Assembly (NCBI GenBank): GCA_000424365.1
Contig: AUJT01000012.1
Span: 1-64,000 of the forward strand
Length of the DNA: 64,000 nucleotides
Direction of reading: 5' to 3'
DNA from: Lachnospiraceae bacterium NK4A144
GTDB lineage: Bacteria; Bacillota; Clostridia; Lachnospirales; Lachnospiraceae
Shown here: positions 27,663 through 53,746 of the stretch, in pieces
Position numbering within the stretch: position 1 is the stretch's first letter
Layout: every line of letters starts with the position of its first letter
Translations under genes and position numbers: made by a program
The notes under the pieces: generated by a model
Databases searched by the model: none
What the model saw: the letters and a program-made list of their open reading frames with translations, nothing else
Told to the model about the DNA's origin: nothing

Positions 27663-28433
27663 ATGGAGAAGAAGATAATCCTTATCAGCAAGGGTTCTAC
27701 CTTCATGGTGGGGGCTATTACCTCCAATCTGGAGGAAGCCGGATATGAAGTAGTACCTGCACTGCCGGATGTCGATGATCTTTCGGGAAAGATCGGGCTT
27801 GCCGATATGATCGTTTTCTATCTGGGTGATTATATTGAAGAAATTCAGGATACATTGGATTATCTGAAGGAAGTGGTCCTCGAAAAGGGGAAGCTCCTGT
27901 TCATAATAGGTAGTAATGATGAATTTTTTGACTTTGACAGGAAAGCCACTCCTCAGATCGTTACCAGCCGTTTTTTAAGACCGCTTAACGTGAGAGATCT
28001 TATAGACAAGCTAAATGCTGTGATCGAAGTCAACTCTGAAGAATCAGAGAAAAAGTCTATCATGATCGTAGATGATGATGTTATGTTCCTTAAACTTATG
28101 AAGGAATGGCTGACAGGTCCGTATAAGGTAACTATGGCAAATTCGGGGATGCGTGCCATTACGTATCTGGCGAATAACAGACCGGATCTGATACTTCTGG
28201 ATTATGAGATGCCTGTGACAAACGGCCCTCAGGTTTTGCAGATGATACGCGATGATGCATCGACCAGTTCGATACCGGTCATGTTTCTGACCGGAAAAGG
28301 TGACAGGGAGAGTGTGTTGAAGGTTGTTGGACTGAAACCTGACGGGTATCTGCTAAAATCTATGACCAGAGATGAACTTTTGGCGCAGATAAGAGATTTC
28401 TTTGAAGCACGAAAGATGAAAAAACTTCAGTAA
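27663..28433 (+). CDS. Response regulator with pseudo-receiver N-terminus
   Basis: 256 residues. The C-terminal half (about 130-256) is a receiver with MIVDDDV, LLDYEMPVTNG (phospho-Asp about 178) and YLLKSM as the Lys region. The N-terminal half has a receiver-like fold pattern (ILISKGSTFMVGAI ... MIVFYLGDY) but no phospho-Asp motif. No DNA-binding or enzyme output is visible. ATG 27663 has AAGGAG 6 bases upstream; the ATG overlapping the kinase stop at 27645 lacks one. It is probably the acceptor from the Hpt domain of the kinase just upstream. Confidence 0.85.
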   Translation: MEKKIILISKGSTFMVGAITSNLEEAGYEVVPALPDVDDLSGKIGLADMIVFYLGDYIEEIQDTLDYLKEVVLEKGKLLFIIGSNDEFFDFDRKATPQIVTSRFLRPLNVRDLIDKLNAVIEVNSEESEKKSIMIVDDDVMFLKLMKEWLTGPYKVTMANSGMRAITYLANNRPDLILLDYEMPVTNGPQVLQMIRDDASTSSIPVMFLTGKGDRESVLKVVGLKPDGYLLKSMTRDELLAQIRDFFEARKMKKLQ

Positions 28434-28451
28434 GATCAGTAAATAATATCA

Positions 28452-28480
28452 TTCTGCGATACACCGTTCTATGGTATAAT
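28452..28480 (+). promoter_or_regulatory. Probable proB promoter
   Basis: TATAAT (28475-28480) with a poor -35 (TTCTGC) at 17 bases; about 80 bases ahead of proB. Confidence 0.45.
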
Positions 28481-28526
28481 CAATCTGTTTATGCGCGTAA
28501 AAAATGGACATCCGAGGATGGTTACC

Positions 28527-28559
28527 ATGACTAAACGGGTGTTTATAGAGGAGGCATGA
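28527..28559 (+). CDS. Possible 10-residue leader peptide before proB
   Basis: GAGGATGG then, 5 bases later, ATG starts a ten-codon frame (MTKRVFIEEA) that runs through the proB ribosome binding region and stops 7 bases before the proB ATG. Reinitiation or translational coupling is possible; it may also be chance. Confidence 0.25.
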   Translation: MTKRVFIEEA

Positions 28560-28566
28560 TAAGGCT

Positions 28567-29364
28567 ATGGGACTTAAGAGAAGACGTATTGTGGTAAAGG
28601 TTGGTACGTCCACGCTTACAAATGAGCTTGGACATAGTAATCTGCGCAGGATGGAAAAACTGGCACTTGTCCTTTCAGATATTCAGAATATGGGAAATGA
28701 AGTTGTTCTGGTTTCTTCCGGAGCGATCGCTGTCGGGGCAAATAAGATGAGACTCCCGGAGCGACCGACTACCATGAGGATGAAACAGGCGGCGGCAGCG
28801 GTCGGACAGTGCGAGAATATGTTTCTCTATGATAAGTTCTTTGGTTATTATGATAAGACAGTCGCACAGATACTTTTGAATGCTGAGGATATCAGACAGG
28901 AAGAAAAGAAAGAGAATCTTACAAATACATTTAATGCTCTTTTAGAGCAGGGTATTATACCCATAGTTAATGAAAACGATTCGGTAAGCTATACGGAGAT
29001 CGAGTCGGCAGACAGGCTATTTGGTGATAACGATATGCTGTCGGCAGTGGTTTCTGTTCTCTGTCAGGCAGATATCCTTGTAATCTTTTCTGATATTGAC
29101 GGATTTTTTGATAAGGATCCGCGACTTTACAAGGATGCAAAACTGATCGACAGGATAGACAAGATCGACGATAGTCTGTATGAACTTGCAGGCGGCGCAG
29201 GTTCTAGGAGAGGTACCGGCGGCATGCGGACAAAGATACAGGCAGCAGACCTTGCGACCGGTCAGGGCATCAGTGTCATCGTTACAAACGGAGAAAGACC
29301 TGAGGCTCTCTACGACATCGTAGATGGTAAAAAGGTCGGGACATTGTTTAAGGGAAATAGATAA
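28567..29364 (+). CDS. proB: Glutamate 5-kinase, short form without PUA domain
   Basis: 265-residue amino-acid kinase that phosphorylates glutamate, the first step of proline synthesis. VVKVGTSTLTNE, LVSSGAIAVGA, PIVNENDSVS, FGDNDMLSA and GTGGMRTKI motifs are all present. Most ProB proteins have about 370 residues with a C-terminal PUA domain; this one ends after the kinase domain, as in some Firmicutes. proA is not next to it. GAGGAGG lies 12-13 bases upstream, a long spacing, with AAGG nearer. Confidence 0.93.
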   Translation: MGLKRRRIVVKVGTSTLTNELGHSNLRRMEKLALVLSDIQNMGNEVVLVSSGAIAVGANKMRLPERPTTMRMKQAAAAVGQCENMFLYDKFFGYYDKTVAQILLNAEDIRQEEKKENLTNTFNALLEQGIIPIVNENDSVSYTEIESADRLFGDNDMLSAVVSVLCQADILVIFSDIDGFFDKDPRLYKDAKLIDRIDKIDDSLYELAGGAGSRRGTGGMRTKIQAADLATGQGISVIVTNGERPEALYDIVDGKKVGTLFKGNR

Positions 29365-29377
29365 ATAAAAGAGTTTT

Positions 29378-29415
29378 AAGGGCTTTTCTTTTCGTCTGGA
29401 AGAGGAAAGCCTTTT
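29378..29415 (+). terminator. Terminator after proB
   Basis: Imperfect hairpin AAGGGCTTTTCTTTT / AAGAGGAAAGCCTTTT with a U-rich 3' end, 14 bases past the proB stop. Confidence 0.7.
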
Positions 29416-29639
29416 AATTTTGTAATTGGTTATTGATTTAAATTTTCATGTTCAAAAAAATGATTTTTATATAAAAAATGGCTTAGATACAGCCGATAAA
29501 AAACATTGCAGACATATTTGCATTAAGAAAGATCAACACAACATATTAAAATTGTCCCTACACTTTATGCGGTTAAAGTGATAACATAACATACATCAAA
29601 AAAGTTGACGGTTTTGCTTCTAAGGAGGTCGAAGCAGTT

Positions 29640-31631
29640 ATGTATGATGAAAACAAGTATGCCATTCAATATTTTATGCCGAAAAATCCTACTTACAATT
29701 GGGTAAAGAAGGATCATATAGAGAAGGCTCCTATCTGGTGCAGTGTTGATCTTAGAGACGGAAATCAGGCGCTTATCGAGCCGATGAGTCTGGAAGAGAA
29801 ACTGGATTTCTTCCGTATGCTTGTTGACATCGGATTTAAGGAAATAGAAATAGGTTTTCCTGCTGCATCCGAGACCGAGTACAAATTTGCACGAACCCTT
29901 ATCGAGAAAAAGATGGTTCCGGATGATGTTACGCTTCAGGTTCTGACACAGGCCAGAGATCATATCATCCGTAAGACCTTTGAGGCAGTAGAGGGCGCAC
30001 CGAGAGCAATAATCCATCTTTACAATTCAACTTCGGTCGCTCAGAGGGAACAGGTATTTAAGAAAAATAAAGAGGATATCAAGCAGATCGCCATTGATGG
30101 CGCAAAGCTCTTAAAGAAGCTTGCGGATGAGACAAAGGGTAATTTTTCCTTTGAGTATTCTCCGGAGAGTTTTCCGGGAACAGAGGTTGAGTATGCAGTA
30201 GATGTATGTAACGCGGTTCTCGACGTATGGCAGCCGAAGGAGGATAACAAAGTTATCATCAATATCCCGACAACCGTTGAAAATGCCATGCCGCATGTAT
30301 TTGCCACACAGGTTGAATATATAAGCAACAGCCTGAAATACAGAAATGCAGTGACACTTTCGCTTCATCCTCATAACGACAGAGGATGCGGTATATCTGA
30401 TGCAGAGCTTGGAATGCTTGCAGGTGCTGACAGAATAGAGGGAACACTTTTCGGAAATGGTGAGAGAACAGGTAATGTTGATATCGTAACACTTGCCATG
30501 AATATGTTTACTCACGGTGTTGATTCAAAGCTCGATTTCTCACATATTAATGAGATCGGAAGCATATATGAGAAACTTACCAGAATGGAGATCCCGACAA
30601 GACAGCCGTATGCCGGACAGCTTGTGTTCACAGCTTTCTCAGGTTCTCATCAGGATGCTATCGCAAAGGGATTTGCATGGAGAAAGTCACATATGGACCG
30701 TCCGTGGAGCGTACCGTATCTGCCGGTTGATCCAAAAGATCTCGGTCGTGAGTATGACGGAGATGTCATCCGCATCAATTCACAGTCCGGAAAGGGCGGC
30801 GTAAGCTTTATCCTTAAGCAGAATTACGGTCTCCAGATACCGAAGACCATGCAGGAAGATGTGGGATACACGGTTAAGGGCATTTCGGACAGAGAGCACG
30901 CAGAGCTTTCACCGGAACGCGTATATCATATTTTTGAAGATAAATATGTCCACAATGATGGTGTATTTACTATTAAAGAATGTCACTTTGAGCAGATCGA
31001 CGGTATCCTTGTAAAAGCTACGATCTCCAGAAACGGAAAAGATGTTATCGTGGCTGCAAACGGAAATGGTCGTCTGGATGCGGTAAGCAATGCGATCAAG
31101 TCTTATTTTGATATCAGTTATGAGCTTACTACTTACGAAGAGCATGCGCTGAGCCACGGCTCATCCAGTAAGGCGTGCACATATGTTGGTATCACTGCTA
31201 ACGGAAAGCACTACTGGGGCGTAGGAATTGATGAGGATATCATCACTTCATCCATCAATGCGCTTATAGTAGCAGTAAATCAGCTCGAGGCGATCCGTGA
31301 CAATCGAAATGATAAGGATCAGCGTATCACAGAGATCGTAAACTATATCCAGGAAAATTATCTGTCGGTGACACTTGACGATCTTTCTAGAGAATTTTTC
31401 CTGTCAAAGCCGTATCTTTCTAAATATATTAAGGAAAAGAGCGGTGCAACCTTCAGCGAAAACGTGCAGAAGATAAGACTTAAAAAGGCATGTACGCTTC
31501 TCAGGAACGGAAATATGAAAGTAGAGAAGGTTGCGGAGAATGTAGGCTATCCAAGTGTTGAGCACTTTAACCGTCAGTTTAAGAAGAGATATGAGATGAC
31601 ACCGGTTCAATACCGCAATTCAAAAAGATAA
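29640..31631 (+). CDS. leuA: 2-isopropylmalate synthase fused to AraC-type DNA-binding domain
   Basis: 663 residues. Residues about 1-550 are a complete type-2 LeuA (acetyl-CoA + 2-oxoisovalerate to isopropylmalate, first step of leucine synthesis): VDLRDGNQALIEP, SLHPHNDRGCG metal site, GNGERTGNVD, and the C-terminal leucine-binding regulatory domain. Residues about 562-663 are an AraC-type double helix-turn-helix (LSREFFLSKPYLSKYIKEKS; VAENVGYPSVEHFNRQFKKR). LeuA normally ends at about 560 residues. The fusion is in frame with no stop between. It could be a leucine-sensing enzyme that also binds DNA. AAGGAGG is 11 bases before the ATG. No leuB/C/D nearby. Confidence 0.93.
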   Translation: MYDENKYAIQYFMPKNPTYNWVKKDHIEKAPIWCSVDLRDGNQALIEPMSLEEKLDFFRMLVDIGFKEIEIGFPAASETEYKFARTLIEKKMVPDDVTLQVLTQARDHIIRKTFEAVEGAPRAIIHLYNSTSVAQREQVFKKNKEDIKQIAIDGAKLLKKLADETKGNFSFEYSPESFPGTEVEYAVDVCNAVLDVWQPKEDNKVIINIPTTVENAMPHVFATQVEYISNSLKYRNAVTLSLHPHNDRGCGISDAELGMLAGADRIEGTLFGNGERTGNVDIVTLAMNMFTHGVDSKLDFSHINEIGSIYEKLTRMEIPTRQPYAGQLVFTAFSGSHQDAIAKGFAWRKSHMDRPWSVPYLPVDPKDLGREYDGDVIRINSQSGKGGVSFILKQNYGLQIPKTMQEDVGYTVKGISDREHAELSPERVYHIFEDKYVHNDGVFTIKECHFEQIDGILVKATISRNGKDVIVAANGNGRLDAVSNAIKSYFDISYELTTYEEHALSHGSSSKACTYVGITANGKHYWGVGIDEDIITSSINALIVAVNQLEAIRDNRNDKDQRITEIVNYIQENYLSVTLDDLSREFFLSKPYLSKYIKEKSGATFSENVQKIRLKKACTLLRNGNMKVEKVAENVGYPSVEHFNRQFKKRYEMTPVQYRNSKR

Positions 31632-31680
31632 ACTTGCAGGCGAGGCAGGTATTGTTTATAATTAGGATAACTATGTAGAA

Positions 31681-31713
31681 GAACAGGCTATGGTAGGGAA
31701 CCATGGCCTGTTC
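31681..31713 (+). terminator. Stem-loop after leuA
   Basis: GAACAGGC-TATGG pairs with CCATGGCCTGTTC across a short loop. It has only a weak T-run and may act with the stronger hairpin at 31768 to end leuA transcripts. Confidence 0.45.
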
Positions 31714-31729
31714 TGTTCGATTGTGCGGA

Positions 31730-31760
31730 GCACTTAGCGAGGTTTTTTCGAGCATAGTGC
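31730..31760. repeat. Copy 1 of GCGAGGTTTT-type hairpin repeat
   Basis: CACTTAGCGAGG-TTTTTT-CGAGCATAGTG. A second, closely related unit follows at 31773. The shared core CACTTrGCGAGGTTTT..TCGAGC..AGTG suggests an intergenic repeat family. Confidence 0.55.
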
Positions 31761-31767
31761 GTGCCAT

Positions 31768-31816
31768 GCAAATTCACTTGGCGAGGTTTTGTCGAGCCTA
31801 GTGAAATTTGCTTTTT
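31768..31816 (+). terminator. Terminator built from copy 2 of the GCGAGGTTTT repeat
   Basis: GCAAATTCACTTGGC at 31768 pairs with GCCTAGTGAAATTTGC ending 31811, around GAGGTTTTGTCGA, followed by TTTTT. It ends the leuA transcript or acts as an attenuator for yicC, whose start is 35 bases on. Confidence 0.65.
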
Positions 31817-31850
31817 CAAGTATCCTGAGGGGAAGAAAGGATTCTTAGAA

Positions 31851-32729
31851 TTGATTAAAAGCATGACCGGTTTCGGCAGAGCCGAGACAGAGGGCGAAGG
31901 AAGACGGTATTCTGTTGAGATCAAGACCGTTAACCACCGTTATCTTGAAGTAGGCATAAAGATGCCAAAAGTACTGGCTCCCTTTGAGGGGGCTATCCGT
32001 ACTCTCCTTAAAGAATATATGGAGAGAGGTAAGGTTGACGTATTCATTTCATTTGAAAGCATGGACGGCAATACTGAGACTATCCGCTATAATAGCGCAG
32101 TCGCTCATGATTATTACCGTTACCTTCAGCAGATGGCTGAAGAATTTGGAATGGAAAATGATGTGAGGATCTCCGGACTTTCACGTTATCCTGATGTATT
32201 TACAGCTGAGTCTGCGGAGATCGATGAGGATGCTATCTGGAGAGAGCTTCAGAAGTGTATTCGTAAGGCATGTGAGCAGGTTGTCCGCACCAGAAAGGCA
32301 GAGGGAGAAAATCTCAGCAGGGATCTCATCGCAAAGCTTGATGAGATGAAAGAGCAGGTTGCTTTTGTAGAGCAGAGATCTCCTGAAGTTGTTGAGGAAT
32401 ACAGGCGCAAGCTCAGAGAGAAGGTAGAAGATCTTCTCGGAGACGCACAGGTTGATGAAGCGCGTCTGGTTCAGGAAGTGACGATTTTTGCCGACAGAAT
32501 ATGTGTCGATGAAGAAATCGTTCGTCTTAAGAGTCATATCGACAGTATGAGAAAAGCCATTACCGATGGCGGAACGATTGGCCGTCGCCTTGATTTTATC
32601 GCTCAGGAGATGAACCGTGAGGCAAATACTACTCTGAGCAAGGCAAATGATCTGGCGGTCAGTGATGCTGCCATTGATTTAAAGACCGGAATTGAAAAGG
32701 TCAGAGAGCAGATACAGAATATTGAGTAA
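31851..32729 (+). CDS. yicC: YicC/YloC family endoribonuclease
   Basis: 292 residues from TTG 31851 (LIKSMTGFGRAE, the usual family start; AAAGGA 9 bases upstream). An ATG frame from 31761 would begin inside the terminator hairpin and is rejected. C-terminal DUF1732 motifs are kept: DEARLVQEVTIFADRICVDE, RLDFIAQEMNREANT and KTGIEKVREQIQN. The family has endoribonuclease activity linked to mRNA decay. First gene of the conserved yicC-remA-gmk-rpoZ cluster; its end overlaps remA by 8 bases. Confidence 0.92.
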   Translation: MIKSMTGFGRAETEGEGRRYSVEIKTVNHRYLEVGIKMPKVLAPFEGAIRTLLKEYMERGKVDVFISFESMDGNTETIRYNSAVAHDYYRYLQQMAEEFGMENDVRISGLSRYPDVFTAESAEIDEDAIWRELQKCIRKACEQVVRTRKAEGENLSRDLIAKLDEMKEQVAFVEQRSPEVVEEYRRKLREKVEDLLGDAQVDEARLVQEVTIFADRICVDEEIVRLKSHIDSMRKAITDGGTIGRRLDFIAQEMNREANTTLSKANDLAVSDAAIDLKTGIEKVREQIQNIE

Positions 32730-52966: not shown

Positions 52967-53746
52967 ATGAGCAGTGTTGAATTATTGGACAGGATCAGAA
53001 ATGTAAATGTACTCCTGCACCAGAACAAAAAAGGAAAGGTAGCTTTTACAGATATTTGCGGAGTTCTCCATCACCTTCTTTCGGCAAATGTAATGGTCAT
53101 CAGCCGTAAGGGAAAAGTTCTTGGAGAAGATGCAGAGACATCCGAGGAAAGCTGTCTTCTTCCCGAAGTAAAAGTCGGATCATTCCTGAATGGTGCGCTT
53201 AATGACCGTCTTCTTGGAATCCTTTCCATGCAGGAAAATGTTAATCTTCAGACTTTAGGTTTCGATCAGGAGACTGCAGGAAAGTATCATGTACTGGTTG
53301 CGCCGATCTTTATAGCAGGAAGAAGACTTGGAACACTTATTGTGAGCCGCCTTTCTGATATGTATTCGATCGAAGATATCATTGTATGTGAATATGGCAC
53401 GACTGTGGTCGGACTTGAGATGCTTCGTTCCCTTAGTGAAGAGGACGCAGAGGAGAATCGTAAGGAAAAGGTTGTTCGTTCAGCATTTGCATCTCTTTCA
53501 TACTCAGAGGCAAAAGCAGTAGTACATGTCCTTGATAGTCTTGAGGGCAAAGAGGGTACTATCGTTGCATCCAGAATTGCAGAAAATATCGGTATCACAC
53601 GTTCTATCATCGTTAATGCGATGAAGAAACTTGAGAGTGCAGGCATCATAGAGACACGTTCCGCAGGTATGCGAGGAACCAACATCAAGATCATTAATGA
53701 TGATGTTTACGATGAAGCACATTCATGGCAGTCGGAGATGGGTTAA
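52967..53746 (+). CDS. codY: GTP-sensing transcriptional repressor CodY
   Basis: 259 residues. The N-terminal GAF domain (1-155) binds branched-chain amino acids; the C-terminal winged helix (about 180-259) has ASRIAENIGITRSIIVNAMKKL, the CodY recognition helix. Represses nutrient-scavenging and amino-acid synthesis genes when GTP and Ile/Leu/Val are high. The leucine-synthesis fusion gene 20 kb away is a plausible target, but no good CodY box (AATTTTCWGAAAATT) was seen. Located directly before the flagellar operon, as in Bacillus. Confidence 0.96.
   Translation: MSSVELLDRIRNVNVLLHQNKKGKVAFTDICGVLHHLLSANVMVISRKGKVLGEDAETSEESCLLPEVKVGSFLNGALNDRLLGILSMQENVNLQTLGFDQETAGKYHVLVAPIFIAGRRLGTLIVSRLSDMYSIEDIIVCEYGTTVVGLEMLRSLSEEDAEENRKEKVVRSAFASLSYSEAKAVVHVLDSLEGKEGTIVASRIAENIGITRSIIVNAMKKLESAGIIETRSAGMRGTNIKIINDDVYDEAHSWQSEMG

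Follow-up and report, generated by a model that had tools for sequence, protein, structure and literature searches.

Lachnospiraceae bacterium NK4A144 (genome G000 in our sample) carries a gene for 2-isopropylmalate synthase (LeuA) that appears to continue in frame into an AraC-type DNA-binding domain. The gene lies within the window analysed here, a stretch of 64,000 nucleotides at the start of contig AUJT01000012.1. The locus raises the question of whether the tail makes a feedback-sensing enzyme into a regulator of transcription and, if so, of which genes and in response to which signal.

The fusion gene (29640..31631, + strand) is a single open frame of 663 amino acids with an ATG start and no internal stops. 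Over residues 5–548 the product matches the LeuA family PRK03739 at full length (796.6 bits against an NCBIfam cut-off of 455), and all of its Pfam domain matches lie above their cut-offs. The HMGL-like catalytic domain (residues 31–307; 29730..30560, +) is followed by IPMS_D2 (residues 328–393) and by the allosteric LeuA_dimer domain (residues 422–549; 30903..31286, +; E 6.5e-26), the presumed leucine sensor. The predicted DNA-binding tail (residues 560–663; 31317..31628, +) contains HTH_18 (residues 582–660; 31383–31619, +; E 3e-19, 69.5 bits against a cut-off of 33.6) and HTH_AraC (residues 621–660; E 5.2e-13, 49.2 bits against 26.6), the pattern of an AraC-type double helix-turn-helix, and can be aligned to AraC-type domains whose structures are known. 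The enzyme part matches the Mycobacterium tuberculosis LeuA structure 1sr9 (E 1.9e-149), LeuA_dimer included, and the alignment stops at residue 548 of the query. Across 27 aligned proteins the motifs DLRDGNQ, HPHNDRG and GNGERTGN, which we take to have roles in LeuA catalysis, are invariant or almost so.

The same open frame is present in Lachnospiraceae bacterium MC2017 and in a metagenome-assembled genome (L038 and L063, each 99% identical), and other assemblies carry it at 93–99% identity. Since separately named assemblies hold the same frame, the join is real and an assembly artefact is ruled out as its origin; the stop or frameshift between the two parts that might have undone the fusion is absent. 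The predicted protein is therefore confirmed as a complete 2-isopropylmalate synthase reading in frame into an AraC-type double helix-turn-helix, as the initial annotation had described it. The boundary given there, residue 562, was close: residues ~550–559 are variable, and strong conservation begins at D560/R562. A search of the genome with the fusion protein gave 23 matches, 22 of them to the tail end only (residues 519 onward), such that the fusion is the sole LeuA-type match in NK4A144. Its neighbours are proB upstream and a yicC-type gene downstream, and both leuC-type genes of the genome sit on another contig (C33), which bears out the description of the gene as standing alone, away from leuBCD. 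The two leuC-type genes are arranged in tandem (C33:18297–19523 and C33:20071–21303).

The fusion is widespread in the family, the full-length form being found in at least 89 of 397 sampled Lachnospiraceae genomes, with one further match cut by a contig end; this answers how common it is among relatives of NK4A144. At E ≤ 1e-225, a class-level draw of 391 genomes gave the full-length form in 13, three of which lie outside the home family (families f14, f14 and f73), and a phylum-level draw of 398 genomes gave it in four, one outside the home family (f197, which shares only the phylum). The fusion thus extends to four sampled genomes in three other families. Open frames of at least 640 residues occur in 112 of 190 loci, comprising the 89 sampled loci and 23 named loci that share species with them, and these related genomes are not independent. 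In one congener of NK4A144 (G079) the best LeuA match (E 3e-172) is much weaker than that in the other congener, which suggests another leuA.

When the enzyme parts of 70 fused and 58 tail-less rows were placed in a quick tree (support from SH-aLRT only), all fused rows fell in one group (SH-aLRT 97) in which 18 tail-less rows are nested. The tail label requires 13 changes on this tree, ten of them forced by well supported branches, or 11 changes if two frame-broken genes are counted as tail-bearing. We infer, the direction of change included, a history of one gain and about ten losses.

Mean column conservation in 53 fused proteins is 0.79 for the helix-turn-helix part, the corresponding figures being 0.77 for LeuA_dimer, 0.88 for the catalytic domain and 0.61 for the linker. 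Residues Y592, S594, K595, I597, E641, H642, F643 and R645, which presumably lie in the two recognition helices, are 98–100% identical. Among 11 gene pairs the dN of the tail is lower than that of the catalytic domain in six, about equal in four and higher in one (L013/L017). Tail dN/dS is 0.007–0.012 in the five pairs where an estimate was possible, values which are rough because dS is near saturation. On these comparisons the tail is strongly conserved and kept under selection. That the fusion is an accident devoid of any regulatory role would agree with the repeated loss of the tail, seen in the 18 tail-less rows nested among fused ones, but its long conservation and low divergence, together with the conserved element described below, make such an origin scarcely credible.

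EM motif discovery in the upstream regions of 95 non-redundant fused genes returned one strong motif, present at 12 bits or more in 69 of the 95, in one of 58 tail-less genes and in none of the single-base shuffles. An alignment of the 66 best sites needs few gaps and reads TAAAAnAnATCAAnnAAAnTGATTAAATTTnTCncTT, then ~18 bases, then TGnTAnnAT. At the NK4A144 locus the model matches 29522–29590 (E 5.6e-10). The conserved element itself (29524..29559, +), delimited by the EM motif, the 66-site alignment and the genome scan, consists of tandem half-sites like TnAAAnnnRTCA 22 bp apart and is the proposed site for a LeuA-HTH dimer; its self-similarity is moderate (0.34 at offset 22 and 0.32 at offset 23). 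It lies inside the leader (29365–29639) put forward earlier as the first DNA to be tested for binding by the protein, so that this proposal now has a gene-specific matching element, a candidate binding site, to point to.

Downstream of the element is the extended -10 (TGaTAACAT; 29579..29587, +) of the predicted leuA promoter. It is conserved across the 66 aligned sites, 62 of which have the TG; transcription would start near 29594. At the best -35 match 3.15 of 6 positions agree on average, against 2.54 in shuffles, and the -35 is therefore weak, not wholly absent. In nine aligned loci the start of a T-box leader falls in the range from 1 base before to 40 bases beyond the end of the 70-base block, and leaders that begin just past the extended -10 support the predicted promoter as real. 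With the -10 taken as -12 to -7, the element occupies ~-70 to -35, ahead of the extended -10.

Biosynthetic genes are more commonly repressed by their end product, and the element borders the -35 region; the tail could on these grounds bind it as a repressor and, with leucine as co-repressor, block RNA polymerase. The element, however, ends upstream of the -10 and the start, and in class II AraC-family activators such as AraC and MarA, as described in the consulted sections of PMC6900184, the site likewise overlaps or borders the -35. The site position therefore makes activation the likelier sign, and repression is improbable.

The association of element and tail was scored with every locus excluded from the model used to score it, by searching 1 kb upstream and using doublet-block shuffles (five per sequence). 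The element was found ahead of 74 of 88 scorable fused genes (89 loci, one too near a contig end), with no shuffle reaching that cut-off; the other 14 have no clear element at leuA. It also precedes 19 of the 23 named fused loci and two of 77 tail-less genes (L179 and L187, in genomes G061 and G078). In both of these the stop is immediately followed by out-of-frame tail-like DNA, whereas the rest of the 23 tail-less loci examined keep none there (three of the 23 had little downstream DNA). They represent a recent loss, a real split or a sequencing error. With L179 and L187 counted as tail-bearing, the tree rows comprise 54 with tail and element, 17 with the tail only, none with the element only and 56 with neither. 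Across eight independent pairs, element and tail agree in an average of 5.3 and disagree in none (median p 0.06). Two other tail-less genes have a weak partial match upstream (G266, E 0.02; G112, E 0.003). In the fused genomes of other families, which were not used in the model, the element is present at the fused gene in 4/4 (E 1e-12 to 4e-6), and in the ten remaining fused Lachnospiraceae genomes it was found at leuA in four (G077, G005, G116 and G163), with no clear site in six.

Many AraC-type proteins are encoded in the genome, as the 22 further tail matches indicate, and one of them might read the element while the tail has a different DNA target or none. Such a regulator is very unlikely, since element and tail are kept or lost together and the element accompanies the fused gene into other families. 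Most likely the tail reads the element, and its main target, as predicted from these associations, would be its own promoter.

A sequence-only model of the element was then run on 80 fused genomes. By hand count, leuA has a match within ~850 bases upstream in 76 of them, at E ≤ 1e-3 in 73, and the top match in this blind scan is usually leuA's own promoter; four genomes (G203, G216, G233 and G292) have no match near leuA. Twelve matches at E ≤ 1e-3 lie away from leuA. Five of the six strongest precede leucine or branched-chain genes at 46–89 bases: leuB (75 bases), ilvE (55 bases) and leuC (46 bases), all of which pass their family cut-offs, leuD (72 bases), which passes a subfamily cut-off, and the binding protein of a branched-chain ABC transporter (89 bases), for which the family match is below cut-off and permease- and ATPase-like genes follow. 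The remaining seven of the 12 look by eye unrelated to leucine (pspA-like, trkA-like, rho, cstA and others). A further match precedes leuC of G216 (E 0.0014). The 80 control genomes, 60 with a tail-less LeuA match listed and 20 from weaker matches, gave ten matches at E ≤ 1e-3. Two belong to G061 and G078, at their frame-broken leuA; the other eight lie away from leuA, and none of the seven inspected among these stands before a recognisable branched-chain gene; gene names at such background matches were assigned by eye.

In genus g207 the leuC site is present in all five genomes, where it seems to overlap the 3' end of the upstream open frame, which could explain part of its conservation. Among 69 leuC upstream regions from 69 of the 80 genomes, 65 were scorable and two contain the element (G207 and G216). 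A model search of 70 loci gave five forward matches at E < 0.05, among them the leuD-first operon of G202 and partial matches in G036 and G353. Because only 2/65 scorable leuC regions have it, the element was rejected as a general leuC switch or leucine-regulon site. In the scan of the NK4A144 genome leuA alone has a clear site, the next match having E 0.057, and a relaxed scan of 40 genomes gave no new second target. The earlier idea that the fusion might control the ilv and leuBCD promoters finds its counterpart in sites before leucine genes of some other genomes; in NK4A144, where leuA alone has a clear site, control of leuDC or ilv genes would be speculative.

Two other features of leucine loci were recorded. 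The leuD-leuC leader of NK4A144 (L329; contig C33, ~1310–1400) contains a 35–36 bp island identical to that of a congener (G380), with ATTAAAA repeats that resemble the leuA half-sites in a different layout; the model match there is 9.9 bits and not significant. G202 (L232) has two LeuD/LeuC-like pairs.

Other known controls were considered at the same loci. A T-box was rejected for NK4A144 leuA, as none is present in 28400–32000, where the search gave just a weak unrelated match. T-boxes were found in 14 of 17 fused loci chosen for T-box-like or odd leaders, a selected set and not a rate, and in those genomes the tail therefore comes on top of other controls. In nine loci (L054, L056, L127, L015, L022, L032, L130, L155 and L169) an element-type promoter leads directly into a T-box leader, a predicted arrangement in which one gene is under leucine control at two levels. 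A CodY gene is found on the same contig as the fusion (52982–53716, +; PRK04158 at 270.5 bits against a cut-off of 255, TIGR02787 under its cut-off), and CodY has therefore not been lost. Of the two roles first suggested for the tail, replacing or complementing CodY, replacement by loss of CodY is contradicted, and an additive role has its parallel in the T-box loci of other genomes.

Taken as a whole, these results favour, at a probability of about 0.6, a LeuA that would be at once a working leucine-sensitive enzyme, a sensor and a dedicated activator of its own gene, with leucine as the probable off-signal. The reading builds on what is visible in the sequences, namely the architecture, its conservation, the element and its position, the association with the tail and the leucine-gene targets; DNA binding, activation instead of repression and leucine as ligand are the predictions it adds. 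The enzyme dimer would set two AraC-type tails on the tandem site that immediately precedes the leuA promoter, where, given the extended -10 and weak -35, the bound tails would help RNA polymerase to start. Leucine bound in the LeuA_dimer domain beside the tail would inhibit catalysis and cause the tails to leave or shift on the DNA, so that a single binding event would switch off the enzyme's activity and its production alike. The same site also stands before leuB, leuC, leuD, ilvE or a branched-chain transporter gene in some genera.

Among the possible signals leucine ranks first, because the domain that binds it in ordinary LeuA adjoins the tail. The same site and autoregulation could instead answer to 2-ketoisovalerate, to acetyl-CoA, to 2-isopropylmalate or to the enzyme's turnover state. 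Yeast Leu3p senses 2-isopropylmalate. As a regulator in the leucine pathway, Leu3p serves as a biosensor (PMC8755756) and so lends this alternative some weight; against it, the domain joined straight to the tail is of the leucine-binding type, and we consider a signal other than leucine possible and rather unlikely. The leucine-contact residues of LeuA were sought in the excerpts of PMC11057210 and were not found there. For the preferred reading as a wider proposal, we lean slightly towards a committed-step enzyme that is catalyst, end-product sensor and own-gene activator through one allosteric domain, a loop of single origin which spread through the Lachnospiraceae, other families and another class, was repeatedly lost together with its operator and captured other leucine genes in some genera.

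If this is correct, a single leucine-binding event both inhibits the enzyme and halts its synthesis. The passage from allosteric enzyme to transcription factor could then be studied cleanly in a natural setting, since the fusion seems to have arisen once and to have been lost repeatedly, its tail-less sisters can serve as controls, and the DNA site is sharply predicted. The same reading would also predict how leucine synthesis is controlled in a large share of gut and rumen Lachnospiraceae.

Searches of open-licence PMC papers found no account of a LeuA–AraC fusion, and the excerpts of PMC9026213 make no mention of one. What is new in the present comparison is a promoter element common to the fused genes, in the usual position for an AraC-family activator. 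Leucine-inhibited M. tuberculosis LeuA (1sr9), whose catalytic and regulatory domains align with the fusion protein, has, unlike it, no DNA-binding tail. Escherichia coli Ada combines enzyme activity with an AraC-type DNA-binding part in one protein and activates its own promoter; it acts in DNA repair, is switched irreversibly by methylation and has no metabolite sensor. AraC and MarA share the AraC-type domain and the predicted site position with LeuA-HTH, whereas the part with which they sense is no enzyme. T-box and CodY control in Firmicutes concerns the same genes and signal area, but acts through RNA or a separate protein and not through the enzyme. In the consulted sections of PMC6978683, PutA and BirA are trigger enzymes, that is, metabolic enzymes that also control genes of their own pathway, and both are described as repressors. 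The fusion protein would resemble them in uniting an enzyme with predicted gene control, although their folds are unrelated to it. To our knowledge, an AraC-type tail on a feedback-inhibited enzyme of a committed step is found in neither PutA nor BirA. The fusion of NK4A144 may accordingly be likened to a trigger enzyme, one built from LeuA and an AraC-type domain.
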